DNA of 64,000 bases from Bdellovibrio sp. NC01 (GTDB lineage Bacteria > Bdellovibrionota > Bdellovibrionia > Bdellovibrionales > Bdellovibrionaceae). The position numbers and the translations under genes were made by a program. Below, piece after piece: positions 15,859-23,538 of the stretch. Numbering within the stretch: the stretch's first letter is position 1; each line of letters opens with the position of its first letter. The stretch covers positions 2,666,001-2,730,000 of the forward strand of contig NZ_CP030034.1 in NCBI RefSeq assembly GCF_006874625.1. The letters are read 5' to 3'. The notes beneath the pieces were generated by a model. It saw only the letters and a program-made list of their open reading frames with translations. It did no database searches and was not told where the DNA came from.

Positions 15859-16371
15859 ATGAAACATAGCGGAATTATTCCTATCGTCGCCATGATGTGC
15901 GCACCAGCAATGGGTGCAGACTATAGTGGTTATAAAAAGCCGTCGAACGATGAGCTTAAAAAGCAACTGACTCCCGAACAATACGACGTGACTCAGCGTG
16001 AAGGCACGGAAGCGCCATTCCATAACGCTTATTGGAACAACCACGAAGAAGGACTCTATGTCGACGTCGTTTCAGGGGAACCCCTATTCAGCTCAATAGA
16101 CAAATACGATTCAGGAACTGGCTGGCCAAGTTTTACGAAACCCCTTGATAAGAATGCCGTGACCGAAAAAACCGATCACAAGCTTTTCATGGAAAGAACG
16201 GAAGTGCGTAGTAAACACGCAAACTCGCACCTTGGTCACGTCTTTGATGATGGCCCGGGTCCCGAGGGCAAACGCTATTGCATGAATTCGGCATCGCTGC
16301 GCTTTATCCCTGTCAGCAAACTTGAAGCTGAAGGTTACGGCGAATATTTGAAATTGTTTAAAAAGAAATAG
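15859..16371 (+). CDS. msrB: periplasmic methionine-R-sulfoxide reductase, single-Cys type
   Basis: The 170-residue product carries a signal peptide ending in APAMGA and a full MsrB fold ([37 protein letters not shown]). The catalytic Cys is Cys141 in [11 protein letters not shown]. Both zinc CxxC pairs are absent. The recycling Cys found before GWPSF in many enzymes is Thr (DSGTGWPSF), so the mature enzyme has one Cys. It repairs oxidised Met in envelope proteins and needs an outside reductant, probably the DipZ protein encoded nine bases downstream. A GAGGAGG site precedes the ATG. Confidence 0.92.
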
Positions 16372-16380
16372 AGGATTTTT

Positions 16381-18123
16381 ATGGTGCTGTTTCTTCTTTC
16401 ATACATCGGTGGGGTCTTAACGATTTTAAGTCCCTGCATTCTGCCCGTTTTGCCATTTGTATTTGCGAAAGCAGATCAGCCTTTTCGCAAAACAGGTTTG
16501 CCTATTTTGATCGGCATGGCCCTGACTTTTTCATTGGTCTCGGGGTTGGCTGTTTTAGGCGGCTCGTGGGCTTCGAATGCAAATAACTGGGGTCGCTGGG
16601 TTGCTTTGATCTTGTTAACGTTCTTTGGTCTTTCACTAGTCTTCCCCCAATTCTTCGAAAGATTCTTTGAACCGTTCACACGCTTGGGCTCTCGATTGAC
16701 AGAGGGCAGTTCGGCAAAAACGCAAACCTTCGCAAAATCTTTGCTGATTGGTGCCGCAACAGGTTTGTTATGGGCGCCATGCGCAGGACCGATCTTAGGT
16801 TTGATATTAACTGGCGCAGCTGCTCAGGGCACACCTGAAAAAGCAGTGTGGTTTTTATTTGCCTATGCTTTTGGTGCGGCGACCTCTCTGGCGATTGCAT
16901 TGTTTGCTGGTGGTAAATTTTTAGCGACGATGAAAAAATCTTTGAAAGTCGAACGCATCATTAAAATGACTCTGGGTATTGCCGTTCTTTTGGGTGTCGT
17001 TGCGATCTCTTTCAACTGGGATCGCAACGTCTTAACCCGTATCTCGAAAGTGCAAACGGAAGAGTGGGAAAATAAATTGATCGACATGTTCACGCCGGGT
17101 TCGTCATCACAAAACGCAATGACGAGCGGCCAGAACAACGCGCATCTGGAAGATCCATTAGCGGCTTTAACACCCAGCTTATCGGGTGCGACAAAATGGT
17201 TTAACTCTTCCGCTTTATCTTTTGATGATCTTAAAGGCAAAGTAGTCCTTGTAGACTTTTGGACTTACTCTTGTATTAACTGTTTAAGAACTTTGCCTTA
17301 CGTGAAAGCGTGGGCAGAAAAATACAAAGATCAGGGCTTGGTTGTGATTGGTGTGCACACTCCTGAATTTGCTTTCGAAAAAGATCCAACGAATGTTGCG
17401 AAAGCTTTGCAAGATTTAGGTATTACATATCCAGTGGCAATGGATAACGATTACGCCATTTGGAATACTTTTGAAAACCGTTACTGGCCAGCACATTACT
17501 TCTTTGATCGCAATGGTAAGATTCGCCACCACCACTTTGGCGAAGGTGGTTACGATGAATCTGAAAAAGTTATTCAAGAACTGTTGGAAGAAAATGGTAA
17601 GACCGTCAAAGACCACATGGTGCAAGTGCAAGGTCAAGGTGTTCAAGCGTCGGCTCGTTTTCAAGATGTGCAATCTCCGGAAACATATTTAGGTCATGCT
17701 CGCGCGCAGAATTTTAAATTACGTCCGATTTTAAAAGCGGATCGTGAAGAGAAATATCAACTGCTTAAAAACTTGGAACTCAATGAATGGACTTTAGGTG
17801 GCAGCTGGTTGATTGATCCCGAAAAAGCAACGTTGATGAAGGCGCCTGGTAAACTTGCCTTCCGCTTCCATGCACGTGATTTACATCTCGTGCTCGGACC
17901 GAAAGATGTTGGCAGCAGCATTCGCTTCCGCGTGACAATTGACGGTAAAGTTCCTGGGGCTCGACATGGCATGGACATCAATGAAAATGGAGAAGGTGTC
18001 GTAAATGGCAACCGTCTGTACCAATTGATTCGTCAATCCGACACAGAACCGATTCAAGATCGAACATTCGAAATTGAGTTTTTAGATCCTTACGTCGAAG
18101 CCTTTGCTTTTACCTTCGGCTAA
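16381..18123 (+). CDS. dipZ: DipZ-type thiol-disulfide membrane protein (CcdA + thioredoxin)
   Basis: The 580-residue protein has an N-terminal CcdA/DsbD-like membrane domain of six helices with paired Cys in SPCILPVLPF and APCAGPILG. A periplasmic thioredoxin domain follows, with Cys298 and Cys301 (WTYSCINCLRTLPYVKAW). The last 150 residues form a C-terminal beta-rich domain found in DipZ proteins. It passes electrons from the cytoplasm across the membrane to periplasmic substrates. Adjacency to the single-Cys MsrB makes that enzyme the likely client. Both genes appear to share the ECF-type promoter at 15801. Confidence 0.9.
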   Translation: MVLFLLSYIGGVLTILSPCILPVLPFVFAKADQPFRKTGLPILIGMALTFSLVSGLAVLGGSWASNANNWGRWVALILLTFFGLSLVFPQFFERFFEPFTRLGSRLTEGSSAKTQTFAKSLLIGAATGLLWAPCAGPILGLILTGAAAQGTPEKAVWFLFAYAFGAATSLAIALFAGGKFLATMKKSLKVERIIKMTLGIAVLLGVVAISFNWDRNVLTRISKVQTEEWENKLIDMFTPGSSSQNAMTSGQNNAHLEDPLAALTPSLSGATKWFNSSALSFDDLKGKVVLVDFWTYSCINCLRTLPYVKAWAEKYKDQGLVVIGVHTPEFAFEKDPTNVAKALQDLGITYPVAMDNDYAIWNTFENRYWPAHYFFDRNGKIRHHHFGEGGYDESEKVIQELLEENGKTVKDHMVQVQGQGVQASARFQDVQSPETYLGHARAQNFKLRPILKADREEKYQLLKNLELNEWTLGGSWLIDPEKATLMKAPGKLAFRFHARDLHLVLGPKDVGSSIRFRVTIDGKVPGARHGMDINENGEGVVNGNRLYQLIRQSDTEPIQDRTFEIEFLDPYVEAFAFTFG

Positions 18124-18139
18124 GTGCTACCATGAAAAC

Positions 18140-18703
18140 ATGTTGGAGTTGATTAGCCAAAATACTTATCAAGTTATGCCTTGGAAAAATGGCCAAGGCA
18201 CAACTTCGCAAATTGCCATCGAACCGCCGGGCACGGCGTTTCCTGATGGTGATTATTTGTGGCGACTCAGTTCAGCGATTGTGAAAGCTGACAACTCCTT
18301 TTCACAGTTCCCGGGTTACAACCGTCTGCTTTCCGTGTGGCAAGGACAGGGTTTGCGCATCAATCATCAAGATTTACTGAAGTCTGCAATCCTGGCGTTT
18401 CACGGTGAAGAGCCCATTCATGCCGAACTTATTCAAGGCGATGTCATGGATATTGGCATCATCTTTAAGCGCGGTCGCGTCCAAGCTGACATGAAAGTTT
18501 TAACGGTGCTACCAAACCAAACACAAAGTATCCCCTTAGAGCAGAAGATCCATTTTTTGTTCTGCGCCGAAGGAAGCTTTAAAGCCGAAGCGCACACGAT
18601 TGCTCATGGCGACACTCTCAAAGTCACAGATCAGAATGTCATCACGATTACTGGGGGCTCTGGGGCAACGAAGATCTATCTGATTGGTCTTTCGGCGCGC
18701 TGA
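18140..18703 (+). CDS. HutD/DUF886 family protein
   Basis: This 187-residue cupin-like protein has the HutD family opening (YQVMPWKNGQGTTSQIAIEP, then YLWRLSSAIV) and a core FSQFPGYNRLLSVWQGQGL. HutD is linked to histidine utilisation, with an uncertain regulatory or ligand-limiting role. No other hut genes are seen, but a histidine-related sulfoxide synthase lies 0.6 kb downstream. The ATG at 18140 starts the family homology. Its last 56 bases overlap the convergent DUF2127 gene. Confidence 0.8.
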   Translation: MLELISQNTYQVMPWKNGQGTTSQIAIEPPGTAFPDGDYLWRLSSAIVKADNSFSQFPGYNRLLSVWQGQGLRINHQDLLKSAILAFHGEEPIHAELIQGDVMDIGIIFKRGRVQADMKVLTVLPNQTQSIPLEQKIHFLFCAEGSFKAEAHTIAHGDTLKVTDQNVITITGGSGATKIYLIGLSAR

Positions 18704-19269: not shown

Positions 19270-22200
19270 ATGTCCTATACAGTTTCGCTGCAAAGAAATC
19301 CCAACCTTTCGATTCCACAAATCGATCGCAGTTCAAAAAATGAAGTGCTCGAAAGTTTTGGATCGTCATGGTGGACAGGTGTTGCTCCGGAAAAATGTGT
19401 TGGCTTCAATAAAGAAAAAAATTTCTTACAAGCTCTTCCATTAATCAACTTGGACATTTGCACACGCCAAGATGTGATTGATTATTTCAATAACTCTTGG
19501 ACTTTGACGGAAGTTCTTTTTTCTTCATTGAAAAATGAATCGACATACATTCGTCCCCCGTATCACGAACTTCGCCATCCATTGATGTTCTACTACGGTC
19601 ATCCGGCGGTGCTTTATTATAACAAAATGCGCTTAGCAGGTTTGTTCACAGAGCCCGTTGATTTGTTTTTAGAAAAAATTCTTGAAACCGGCGTTGATGA
19701 GATGAGCTGGGATGACATGTCGAAAAACGAGATGGCATGGCCACGTATCAAAGAAGTTCATGCCTATCGCAAAAAAGTCTATGACCACGTTTTGAACGTT
19801 ATTAAAACTCATCCTGATCTTGAACCGGGACCAAAAAGAAATTTGGGACCGTCTTCACCACTGTGGTCTTTATTCATGGGCTTTGAGCACGAAAAGATTC
19901 ACTTTGAAACTTCAAGTGTACTTATCCGCGAATTGCCGTTGGAGCTGGTTGAAACTCCGAAGTACTGGGTGCCGATGCATCCGTCTGCGATGTTGAAAAC
20001 TCCAGTAAAGCCGACACCGGGAAAAGACTATCCAGAAAATCACTGGGTGAAAGTTCCTGGTGGCACTGTTCACTATGGAAAAACTCCTGACGTTCCGTCT
20101 TACGGTTGGGACAACGAATACGGTTCACGCACAAAAACTGTAAAAGATTTTGAAGTCACTGAGCAGCTTATTAGCAACGGCGAATATTATGAGTTCGTTG
20201 CCAGCGGCAGTTACATCAACGACAAGTACTGGGGCCAGGAAGGTTTGCAGTGGAGAAAATTCCGCAACACCAAACGTCCCACGTTCTGGGTTGCACACGG
20301 ACCGGAAGGTCTTCACGACTACAAACTTCGTACGATTTTTGAAATCATTGATATGCCATGGAGCTGGCCTGCGGAAGTGAACTATCACGAAGCGCAAGCT
20401 TATGCTCGCTGGAAACAAGAAAAAGATAATACAAAACTTATCTATCGTTTGATCACAGAGCCAGAACACGTGCGTTTGCGTGATGCGGGGACGGACCCTG
20501 TCTTGCAAAAGCAAGCTTACTCTGATGATGGCGAAGCTTTGCGCGTGATTCCTGCGAATTTTAATTTCCAATATTCGACAGCGACACCTGTGAATTTCTA
20601 TGCCGCAAATAAACTTGGCGTAAAAGACTTATTCGGGAACGTCTGGCAATGGGCTGAAGATCAGTTCAATCCGCTGGATGGTTTTAAAGTTCATCCACTT
20701 TACGACGATTTTTCGACGCCGTGTTTTGATGGCAAACATCAAATGATCTTAGGCGGAAGTTTTATCAGTTGTGGGCACGAAGCTTCAGTGTGGGCACGTT
20801 TCCACTTTAGACCCCACTTCTTTCAACATTCAGGTTTCCGCTTAGCAGCGACTTTGGATGGCAGTGCTGACAATGAATCCACAAAATTAAAACAAAATGG
20901 CGAATACGTTCATCCTCGCCGTCAGAACGTGCGCGATCAAATGCAACAACCTGATTGGTGGAAACATGTTGATCAACCAATGGAATTTGATTCTGTTGAA
21001 TTGAAAAATCTGTGGAACCAAACTGAAGAAGCCATTTTGAACTTTGAAATGAAACGCACTGAAATTTCACCGATGGGTCAAGCTCTTGATCCTGCGACAA
21101 ATGACGTTTCTAAATCGTTCCGTATTCCTTATCAGGCCGTAAAAACATTCCCTGAAAGACCGGATGATTTTGAAAAGCTTTTAAAAACGGTGATTGGCGA
21201 AATGGCGCCAATGGGTCAACAGCCAGGCCATCCTGGTTACATGGCTTACGTTGCCGGAGCTGGCAATGCGATCAGCAACATGGCCCAAGCGATTGCACAA
21301 ACTTTGAATCAGTTCACAGGTCATTATAGCTTGGCTCCGGGTCTTGTGACTTTGGAAGCAGAAGCTTTGCGCTGGATCACAAACATGATCGGTTATCCTG
21401 AACAAAGCGGCGCCTTCTTTACAACAGGCGGCAGTCTTGCGACGTTGTCGGCGTTAAGCATCGCGCGCAAAACGAAAATGCAAGGACATGATTTATCTAA
21501 GGTCCGTTTCTATGCTTCAAACCAAGCTCATCACTGTGCGGGTAAAGCTCTTGGTATTTTGGGTTTCCCTAAAGATGCGTTAAAGTTGATTCCGTCGAAC
21601 AATGAAATGCAAATGGATCTTAAAGCTCTTGAAGCTGCGATTGCGGCTGACAAAGCTTCTGGCATTCAACCATTGTGTGTTATCGGCACAGCTGGCAGTA
21701 CAAACACGGGTGCGATTGATTCTTTGCCAGAAATTTCTGCGATCGCAAAGAAAAACAACATGTGGTTCCACGTCGATGGTGCTTACGGTGGCTTCTTCTT
21801 ATTAACAGAACAAGGCCGTAACAAATTAAAAGGTATCGAGCTTTCTGACTCCGTTGTTCTTGATCCACACAAATCGTTGTCACTTCCTTATGGAACAGGT
21901 TGCGTGCTTGTGCGCGATCGTTCTTTGATGACTTACGATTATCAAGGAGCCCCGTCTTACATGCCGCCTTCACCAGGATTGCATGACCAAGTGGAAGCGC
22001 GACTTGATTTCGCAGACATCACTCCAGAGTTATCACGCGACTTCAGAGGCTTGCGTTTCTGGTTGCCGATCAAAACGATGGGCATCGGTCCCTTCCAATT
22101 GAACTTGGAAGAAAAATTGGAGCTGGCAAAATACTTAGCGACAGAGCTTAAAGCGATTCCATCTTTGACAGTGATTACAGAGCCGCAGCTTTCTATTGTG

Positions 22201-22401
22201 AATTTCAAAATGAAAGACACGACGAAAACGCGTGAACTCTTAACACGCATTAATCAAACGAATAAAATCTTCCTGAGCGCATGTACGTTGAATAACGATG
22301 TCGTGATTCGTGTGTGCTTGCTTGGCTTTAAAACGCACTTTGCGGAAGTCACTGCCCTATTGACTGTGATTCGTTCTGCTTTGAAAGAAATGGGTGCATA
22401 G
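19270..22401 (+). CDS. OvoA-type sulfoxide synthase fused to a PLP decarboxylase
   Basis: From the ATG at 19270 (GGGAG just upstream) the product has 1043 residues. Residues 1-528 match the N-terminal part of OvoA: a DinB-like domain with iron-binding candidates His111 (YYGHPAVLYYN), His207 and His211 (GFEHEKIHFETSSVLIREL), then an FGE-sulfatase domain (NVWQWAEDQ, LGGSFISCGHE, HFFQHSGFRLA). OvoA normally continues into a methyltransferase. Here residues of about 571-1043 are a group II PLP decarboxylase with stacking His754 (NQAHH), Asp836 (HVDGAYGG) and the PLP Lys868 (DPHKSLSLPYGTG). Joining cysteine to histidine C5 as a sulfoxide is the family reaction. The decarboxylation substrate is inferred. 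The class V gene follows directly. Confidence 0.9.
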   Translation: MSYTVSLQRNPNLSIPQIDRSSKNEVLESFGSSWWTGVAPEKCVGFNKEKNFLQALPLINLDICTRQDVIDYFNNSWTLTEVLFSSLKNESTYIRPPYHELRHPLMFYYGHPAVLYYNKMRLAGLFTEPVDLFLEKILETGVDEMSWDDMSKNEMAWPRIKEVHAYRKKVYDHVLNVIKTHPDLEPGPKRNLGPSSPLWSLFMGFEHEKIHFETSSVLIRELPLELVETPKYWVPMHPSAMLKTPVKPTPGKDYPENHWVKVPGGTVHYGKTPDVPSYGWDNEYGSRTKTVKDFEVTEQLISNGEYYEFVASGSYINDKYWGQEGLQWRKFRNTKRPTFWVAHGPEGLHDYKLRTIFEIIDMPWSWPAEVNYHEAQAYARWKQEKDNTKLIYRLITEPEHVRLRDAGTDPVLQKQAYSDDGEALRVIPANFNFQYSTATPVNFYAANKLGVKDLFGNVWQWAEDQFNPLDGFKVHPLYDDFSTPCFDGKHQMILGGSFISCGHEASVWARFHFRPHFFQHSGFRLAATLDGSADNESTKLKQNGEYVHPRRQNVRDQMQQPDWWKHVDQPMEFDSVELKNLWNQTEEAILNFEMKRTEISPMGQALDPATNDVSKSFRIPYQAVKTFPERPDDFEKLLKTVIGEMAPMGQQPGHPGYMAYVAGAGNAISNMAQAIAQTLNQFTGHYSLAPGLVTLEAEALRWITNMIGYPEQSGAFFTTGGSLATLSALSIARKTKMQGHDLSKVRFYASNQAHHCAGKALGILGFPKDALKLIPSNNEMQMDLKALEAAIAADKASGIQPLCVIGTAGSTNTGAIDSLPEISAIAKKNNMWFHVDGAYGGFFLLTEQGRNKLKGIELSDSVVLDPHKSLSLPYGTGCVLVRDRSLMTYDYQGAPSYMPPSPGLHDQVEARLDFADITPELSRDFRGLRFWLPIKTMGIGPFQLNLEEKLELAKYLATELKAIPSLTVITEPQLSIVNFKMKDTTKTRELLTRINQTNKIFLSACTLNNDVVIRVCLLGFKTHFAEVTALLTVIRSALKEMGA

Positions 22402-23538
22402 GTGGCAACTTCAAGACTTGCTGAATTTCAAGAACAGTTTGCTCGCAGAGCCGATTTAACTCATCTGAACAATGCAGGTCTTGCGCCGATTACTTTAGCA
22501 GCTAAAAACAAAGTCGAATATTGGGCTGAACGTTATTATCAAGAAGGTTTTTGGACCGACGCTGATTACATGACCGATGTCTTGTCGGCTCGTCATGCGA
22601 TGGCCGATTTAATCGGCTGCCAACATGATGAGATCGCGTGGTTTCAAAGTGCGGCGGGCGGTATTAATCAATTTGCTTTTGGTATTGGTCTGCAACCCGA
22701 TGATGAAGTTGTGATGTGGGATCAAGAATATTCCAGCATGCTTTATCCTTGGAAAGAAGCTTGCGATCAAAACAAAGCTTTTTTGAAAATCGTCGATTCT
22801 GAAGAAAATTTAAAAACTCCGACTGAAAAATACTTGGCAGCGTTCACGTCTAAAACTCGTGTCGCGGCATTTAGTCTTGTGCAATTCAGCTCTGGCGCAC
22901 GCATGGATACTCAAGCTGTTATTTCTGAATGTAAAAAGCGTGGCATTTTAGTGTTCATTGATATCGCACAAACTCTAGGTCTTCATCCGTGCACAGTGTG
23001 GGCGATGGGTGCTGATGCGGTTGCAGGTGGCAGTCATAAGTGGATGGTTAGCCCCGTTGGTGTTGGCTATTTGGCGATTCGTAAAGAACTTGCGCAAAAA
23101 ATGAAGCCACGAAATATCGGCGCATATACTTATGGGACATGTGACGACCCGTCTGACTTTGCCTGCGAACCAAAAAGAGATGCGACTAAGTTCGAACCTG
23201 GTTCAAAACAAGTTCTAGAGATCACGGCTCTTGGTGCCTCAGCCCGAATCATTAAAGCGGTCGGAGTTGAAACAATCGAAGCCGAGGCCTTACGTTTAGG
23301 CGCGAAACTTCGTGACGGCGTTTATAACAAAGGCCATCAGCTTCTGAATCCATTTGGGCGTGAAGCGATTTCTCCGATGGTAAACTTCCTTCCCGGCAAC
23401 GGCATGTCTTTGCCTGATATGGCAAAGCGTCTGTCAGACCATAAAGTGAACTTTGCTTTGCGTGGTGGTGGCATCCGTCTTTCTACGCACGCCTTTAATA
23501 CTGACAAAGATATCGAAAAAGCGCTGTCGCTTCTTTAA
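22402..23538 (+). CDS. class V PLP enzyme, likely C-S lyase partner
   Basis: This 378-residue fold-type I PLP enzyme of the cysteine desulfurase/EgtE-like class has its PLP lysine at Lys213 (GGSHKWMVSPVGVGYLAI) and the cofactor-binding Asp in FIDIAQTLG. Translation begins at GTG immediately after the stop of the fusion gene, with no gap, so the two are coupled. In ergothioneine and ovothiol synthesis a PLP lyase cleaves the sulfoxide conjugate to release the free thiol, and this gene is placed to do so. It lacks the Cys loop expected of a true cysteine desulfurase. A transaminase activity cannot be excluded. Confidence 0.85.
   Translation: MATSRLAEFQEQFARRADLTHLNNAGLAPITLAAKNKVEYWAERYYQEGFWTDADYMTDVLSARHAMADLIGCQHDEIAWFQSAAGGINQFAFGIGLQPDDEVVMWDQEYSSMLYPWKEACDQNKAFLKIVDSEENLKTPTEKYLAAFTSKTRVAAFSLVQFSSGARMDTQAVISECKKRGILVFIDIAQTLGLHPCTVWAMGADAVAGGSHKWMVSPVGVGYLAIRKELAQKMKPRNIGAYTYGTCDDPSDFACEPKRDATKFEPGSKQVLEITALGASARIIKAVGVETIEAEALRLGAKLRDGVYNKGHQLLNPFGREAISPMVNFLPGNGMSLPDMAKRLSDHKVNFALRGGGIRLSTHAFNTDKDIEKALSLL

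Follow-up and report, generated by a model that had tools for sequence, protein, structure and literature searches.

The sulfoxide synthase OvoA of ovothiol synthesis has, in an adjoining gene, the lyase OvoB, which acts on the OvoA sulfoxide according to the portions of two reports used here (PMC12631010, PMC9103826). The mycobacterial ergothioneine C-S lyase EgtE, a class V enzyme, turns its own sulfoxide into a sulfenic acid in need of a reductant, as stated in the part of PMC4493562 drawn upon, and in MsEgtE a Tyr stacks on PLP and an Arg serves the substrate carboxylate, the R348A exchange killing the enzyme (PMC10805701, likewise in part). A tailoring enzyme co-encoded with OvoA, the N-acetyltransferase 5THNAT, diverts 5-thiohistidine from ovothiol, and the 2025 abstract that presents it (PMC12631010) says that no enzymes making or using 5-thiohistidines other than ovothiol were known before; those known now are still few.

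In this work, we describe a two-gene module of some Bdellovibrionota in which the proposed tailoring enzyme is not an acetyltransferase but a decarboxylase, in most cases joined to OvoA where ovothiol synthase has its methyltransferase, and from which a new thiol amine is predicted. The second gene resembles OvoB in adjoining OvoA and in the reaction predicted for it on the same sulfoxide. A literature search of titles and abstract openings, covering few subscription journals, returned no report of an OvoA-decarboxylase fusion, of a pathway to thiohistamine or of an ovothiol lyase of class V. If the reading given below is true, the module represents a side branch of ovothiol-type antioxidant chemistry not described so far.

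The window, a stretch of 64,000 nucleotides of Bdellovibrio sp. NC01 DNA, carries the OvoA-decarboxylase fusion at 19270-22401 on the plus strand, as are all features of the window given here. Its start is listed at GTG 19240; ATG 19270 is more likely, because GGGAG stands a few bases upstream of it and the homologue in L065 begins there. The sulfoxide synthase core (residues 69-535 of the protein, P0002; 19444-20844) reaches 597 bits against TIGR04344, with a cut-off of 400, and contains the HxxxHxE iron-ligand motif (H217, H221, E223; 19888-19908), invariant in 20/20 aligned fusions, which together place the upstream gene among the OvoA sulfoxide synthases. Mapped by eye, the motif appears to match the iron-ligand triad His170/His174/Glu176 given for E. 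tasmaniensis OvoA in the consulted part of PMC9103826. The methyltransferase of an ovothiol A synthase is absent, as Pfam and curated-model searches of the fusion gave no match to TIGR04345, and its place is taken by PF00282. This PLP decarboxylase domain (residues 635-992; 21142-22215; E 3.9e-57, 194 bits against a gathering score of 27) belongs to the group II PLP decarboxylases, and its nearest solved chain is 4obu (E 3.6e-67). K878 in the DPHK motif (21871-21873), which we take to be the PLP lysine, is invariant in 20/20 fusions and aligns with DAHK of 4obu. The best curated matches of the domain are diaminobutyrate and aspartate decarboxylases, histidine decarboxylase giving only 61 bits, and the substrate cannot be read from the family. 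A model of the fusion (pLDDT 73, pTM 0.52) was too weak for a structure search. The fusion frame of L007 is open over 1062 aa, two TGA triplets there lying outside the annotated frame.

At residue 477 (20668-20670) the fusion has Asn, in FNPL, and the OvoA chain 8khq has Tyr, in IYPF; Asn is also present in G014 and Ala in G094. We infer that this site would be the Tyr417 discussed for E. tasmaniensis OvoA.

The class V gene (22402-23538; GTG start, TAA stop, 378 aa in the ORF list of the window) begins on the base directly following the TAG of the fusion (22399-22401), just as originally noted, and this start is supported by the homologues in L064 and L065, which show ATG at exactly that site. 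In nine other fusions the stop and the following start lie between 14 bases of overlap and 3 bases of gap, if the internal ATG (9016) of L068 is taken as the start there. The protein, our candidate for the C-S lyase of the OvoA product, is a class V member by its match to PF00266 (E 9.3e-42; 143.7 bits, gathering score 21.5), the only match in the Pfam search, which gave none for PF00155. In this it differs from the OvoB-like partners of methyltransferase-type OvoA found here, which are class I/II (PF00155); the contrast is drawn from these partners.

The pairing of the two genes proved constant. Among 99 relatives searched with the fusion, the full-length protein was found in 10 genomes, own genome included, and the class V gene adjoins it in 10/10. 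A survey of 368 genomes of the phylum with TIGR04344 at E 1e-40 gave 37 matches, of which G221, weak and under the cut-off, was excluded. The remaining 36 OvoA genomes comprise 24 fusions, nine with frames of 692-741 aa and three with cores of 467-516 aa. One open frame of 1019-1089 aa is present in 22 of the fusions; that of G105 is broken and that of G110 is split across contigs. The class V gene adjoins the fusion in all 24 of these genomes (ten seen in sequence, G102, G105 and G108 in retrieved DNA, ten by coordinates only, and G110 through its contig L096, which has matching coordinates and bears both the decarboxylase and the class V gene). The contig of G108 ends about 107 residues into the class V gene, and this genome is missing from the matches of the class V profile search. 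Genes flanking the pair vary between genera, and since the pair itself recurs in 24/24 fusions, chance is a poor explanation; the proposal that both genes form one operon and serve one pathway is upheld. All three cores also have the class V gene adjoining. A family member of at least 290 bits was found in none of the nine genomes with a methyltransferase-type OvoA of 692-741 aa (24/24 versus 0/9, Fisher p 2.6e-8, to be read as a guide only, the genomes being related). In G105 (L141, 3191-8964) a Tn5-type transposase gene interrupts the OvoA part and the decarboxylase frame has a break of its own, whereas the class V gene is intact.

The nine OvoA of 692-741 aa have other partners. In four (G094, G096, G171, G160) it is a class I/II or PatB-type lyase; in G164 and G165 a GNAT protein together with a distant class V protein; in G251 a divergent class V protein on the opposite strand; no partner was recognised beside OvoA in G014 and G359, the neighbours of the latter having been compared by BLAST with five queries. 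At L137 (5418-8734, G160) the OvoA-methyltransferase is followed by a PatB-family C-S lyase (TIGR04350, 450.7 bits, cut-off 340), a further lyase type. At L139 (3324-7047) and L140 (2736-6444) OvoA is followed by a GNAT acetyltransferase, in a 5THNAT-like context, and the distant class V protein, an arrangement suggesting that class V has been put to use beside OvoA a second time and separately. G014, of the same genus as our strain, has an OvoA-methyltransferase instead of the fusion (L075, 6728-8899), its core being 52% identical; no PLP gene was recognised adjoining it, and the OvoA tree places this OvoA as sister to the fusions (81/91).

From the gene pairing, domain families, conserved residues and clades observed here we propose a set of reactions, an order of steps and a product. 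The OvoA core would join cysteine and histidine into 5-histidylcysteine sulfoxide. The class V enzyme would form a PLP aldimine with the cysteine part (K213, R359) and eliminate an imidazole sulfenic acid, releasing pyruvate and ammonia; the sulfenic acid would be reduced to the thiol, perhaps with the aid of the enzyme's own C247 and C255. The decarboxylase, fused here and free-standing in L160 and L161, would finally take the carboxylate off 5-thiohistidine to yield 5-thiohistamine. We consider this whole route, with the class V protein as C-S beta-lyase of an ovothiol-type pathway, probable, and a thiohistamine-type product more likely than not. That EgtE, itself of class V, performs such chemistry on the sister sulfoxide counts, by analogy, for a class V lyase. 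The substrate is likely to be histidine and not hercynine, since a search of the strain's own genome with the EgtD model found nothing; the ergothioneine reading was rejected on the same result.

The steps might also run in another order, the decarboxylase first making histamine, the OvoA core sulfurising it and the class V enzyme cleaving a histamine-cysteine sulfoxide, still with 5-thiohistamine at the end. Histamine is accepted by OvoA in vitro, according to the part of PMC9103826 used, and the decarboxylase domain is fused to OvoA itself, both of which would suit such a sequence of events. We nevertheless regard it as unlikely, given the low score of the histidine decarboxylase model and the retention, in L160 and L161, of a methyltransferase-like domain beside the decarboxylase, which fits late tailoring.

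The two cysteines in question form a CX7C motif in the family alignment (C247, 23140-23142; C255, 23164-23166). Both are present in 21/21 fusion partners, in 4/4 partners of methyltransferase-type OvoA (L101, L160, L161, L167) and in row L104 at a contig edge, but in 0/23 others, namely three partners of cores, which thus do without the pair, 15 members without OvoA and five distant rows; L168 and L169 likewise have no such pair. That this dithiol is an in-built reductant of the sulfenic acid is a guess on our part. Equally speculative is the fuller picture, in which the module is a third 5-thiohistidine branch leading to 5-thiohistamine (possibly ring-methylated in the lineage of L160 and L161), with a new class V lyase family whose own C247/C255 dithiol reduces the sulfenic acid in place and is recharged by a thioredoxin-type partner.

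Upstream of the fusion and on the same strand (15859-18703) lie MsrB, DsbD/TlpA-like and HutD-like genes, in an order that recurs in L064 only; they might act as redox partners in the sulfenic acid step.

The class V protein was modelled by AlphaFold (pLDDT 94.9). Among solved folds its nearest are of the SufS type (Foldseek E 4e-28, VIA Z 44), a resemblance which, being one of common fold, shows no function; that no EgtE stood among the 50 VIA matches listed proves nothing either. The protein shares with SufS and CsdA the overall fold and the PLP-binding residues, and alignment to E. coli SufS pairs K226 with K213, D200 with D187, Q203 with Q190, R379 with R359 and H123 with Y110. K213 (23038-23040), the PLP lysine, is invariant in 41/41 rows. 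Y110 (22729-22731) is Tyr in 47 and Phe in one of the 48 family rows, and Tyr in the EgtE reference. R359 (23476-23478), presumably the carboxylate-binding Arg, aligns also with an Arg of the EgtE reference, and we infer its equivalence to R348 of MsEgtE. A Tyr against PLP, a carboxylate Arg and sulfoxide chemistry would thus be common to both enzymes; EgtE, however, falls in another clade, has Arg-Lys where our protein has His212-Lys213, and in its reference sequence has no CX7C pair.

That the class V protein instead works as a cysteine desulfurase or as a general lyase of cysteine, supplying sulfur to OvoA or for other uses and only secondarily linked to OvoA, appears improbable to us. SufS is indeed its best profile (110 bits) as well as its best fold match, and roughly half of the family is found without OvoA and among varied neighbours. 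By profile the protein stands no nearer to EgtE (54.7 bits) than to the desulfurases, which counts against our main reading. The loop with the catalytic Cys of SufS (C364) is nevertheless a gap in 48/48 aligned family rows, Tyr replaces H123, OvoA uses cysteine itself, and the Cys pair is confined to partners of OvoA-decarboxylase and OvoA-methyltransferase. The family (46 rows) forms one clade (100/99), apart from desulfurases and EgtE alike, in a tree computed without five divergent paralogue rows. The original prediction had named clustering with true cysteine desulfurases as evidence against itself, and nothing of the kind is seen. The phylogeny it had called for places the family outside both the EgtE and the desulfurase clades; EgtE, represented by one row only, joins the distant class V proteins found in G164 and G165, both on long branches. 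The protein lies far below every curated cut-off, scoring 54.7 bits against the EgtE model TIGR04343 (cut-off 400), and the absent Cys loop, the change of His to Tyr, the tree and these cut-offs led us to reject the cysteine desulfurase reading. A role in defence was also dismissed, the matches to DndA and SspA being of 56 bits only, as any class V protein might give. Within the family tree the clade of fusion partners has support of 95/60 and the place of L101 is unsettled; no weight is put on either.

A gene occurring mostly without the fusion would also have spoken against the original prediction, and here the outcome is divided. A family member of at least 290 bits is present in 53 genomes of the phylum (51 from the profile search, plus hand-counted cases such as G108), 27 with OvoA and 26 in which no OvoA was found, among the latter G229, where the class V gene is at the contig start. 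The members without OvoA, however, sit on other branches of the family tree, and in the fusion-partner clade every member with upstream DNA covered lies behind a fusion. Since 26/53 genomes are without a detected OvoA, part of the family would seem to do something else or to act on other conjugates. A scan of 84,980 species with two short patterns, which reaches close relatives only and is no census, returned 38 loci, of which 36 belong to the family. A fusion precedes 18 of these (one contig-cut), an OvoA-methyltransferase one and a core three, two are cut upstream, and 12 have no OvoA in the DNA covered. Eight proteins beside OvoA-less members and one gene beside L163 were scanned, and these neighbours (APH kinase, seryl-tRNA synthetase, YiiD thioesterase, MltA and others) gave no hint of a role. 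OvoA was found in 0/45 genomes of the phylum to which the genome of L121 belongs.

The roles of the two PLP enzymes are best told apart where the decarboxylase is missing. The class V gene is present with no decarboxylase next door at the cores L073, L074 and L144 and at the canonical OvoA-methyltransferases L101 and L170 (200.6 and 208.8 bits against TIGR04345, cut-off 170; the OvoA of L170 is cut by the contig start). Because it accompanies OvoA even there, the class V enzyme is taken as the lyase and the PF00282 domain as an add-on. The class V protein would thus very probably take the part of OvoB and cleave the C-S bond of the sulfoxide, as had been suggested for it, and the fused domain is most likely a tailoring decarboxylase. 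The accompanying idea that either enzyme could be the lyase is narrowed, the roles of the two not being interchangeable, as these five loci indicate, and two PLP enzymes working on one sulfoxide need not be assumed, as decarboxylation more likely follows (or precedes) cleavage. Swapped roles, with the PF00282 domain as lyase and the class V protein as decarboxylase or aminotransferase, are thinkable from sequence alone for two fold-type I PLP enzymes, but are highly improbable given that the class V gene is kept at three cores and two canonical OvoA-methyltransferase loci with no decarboxylase adjoining.

In a second phylum OvoA was found in 4 of the 58 genomes searched, and in G438 and G439 the gene order is OvoA, a free-standing decarboxylase and class V; the overlaps come to 4 and 19 bases, and gaps of 3 follow. 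These OvoA end in a divergent methyltransferase-like part (82.5 and 72 bits, under the cut-off). In a comparison with 13 further decarboxylases taken from relatives, the two decarboxylases and 13 fused domains make up one clade (100/100). The OvoA tree, built from 29 cores, has two sides, split at 100/100: one holds 13 fusions (themselves 100/99), the three cores, L160, L161, L163, L162 and G014, and the other eight OvoA with OvoB, PatB, GNAT or divergent class V partners. The lyase type therefore follows the lineage of OvoA, with the decarboxylase as an addition that comes fused or free; if this is true, different PLP subclasses have filled the lyase step in step with OvoA's own lineages. A class V search of seven genomes of the second phylum found family-like proteins in G429, G433, G432 and G422, none of which gave a TIGR04344 match, the OvoA of G429 turning out to be cut by the contig start.

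A Zn alcohol dehydrogenase gene lies near the operon in L160 (849-1979) and L161 (9965-11167), both Ahr-like, and also, by a look at the sequence only, in five Bacteriovorax loci, for example L093 (3670-4716), which may be chance.
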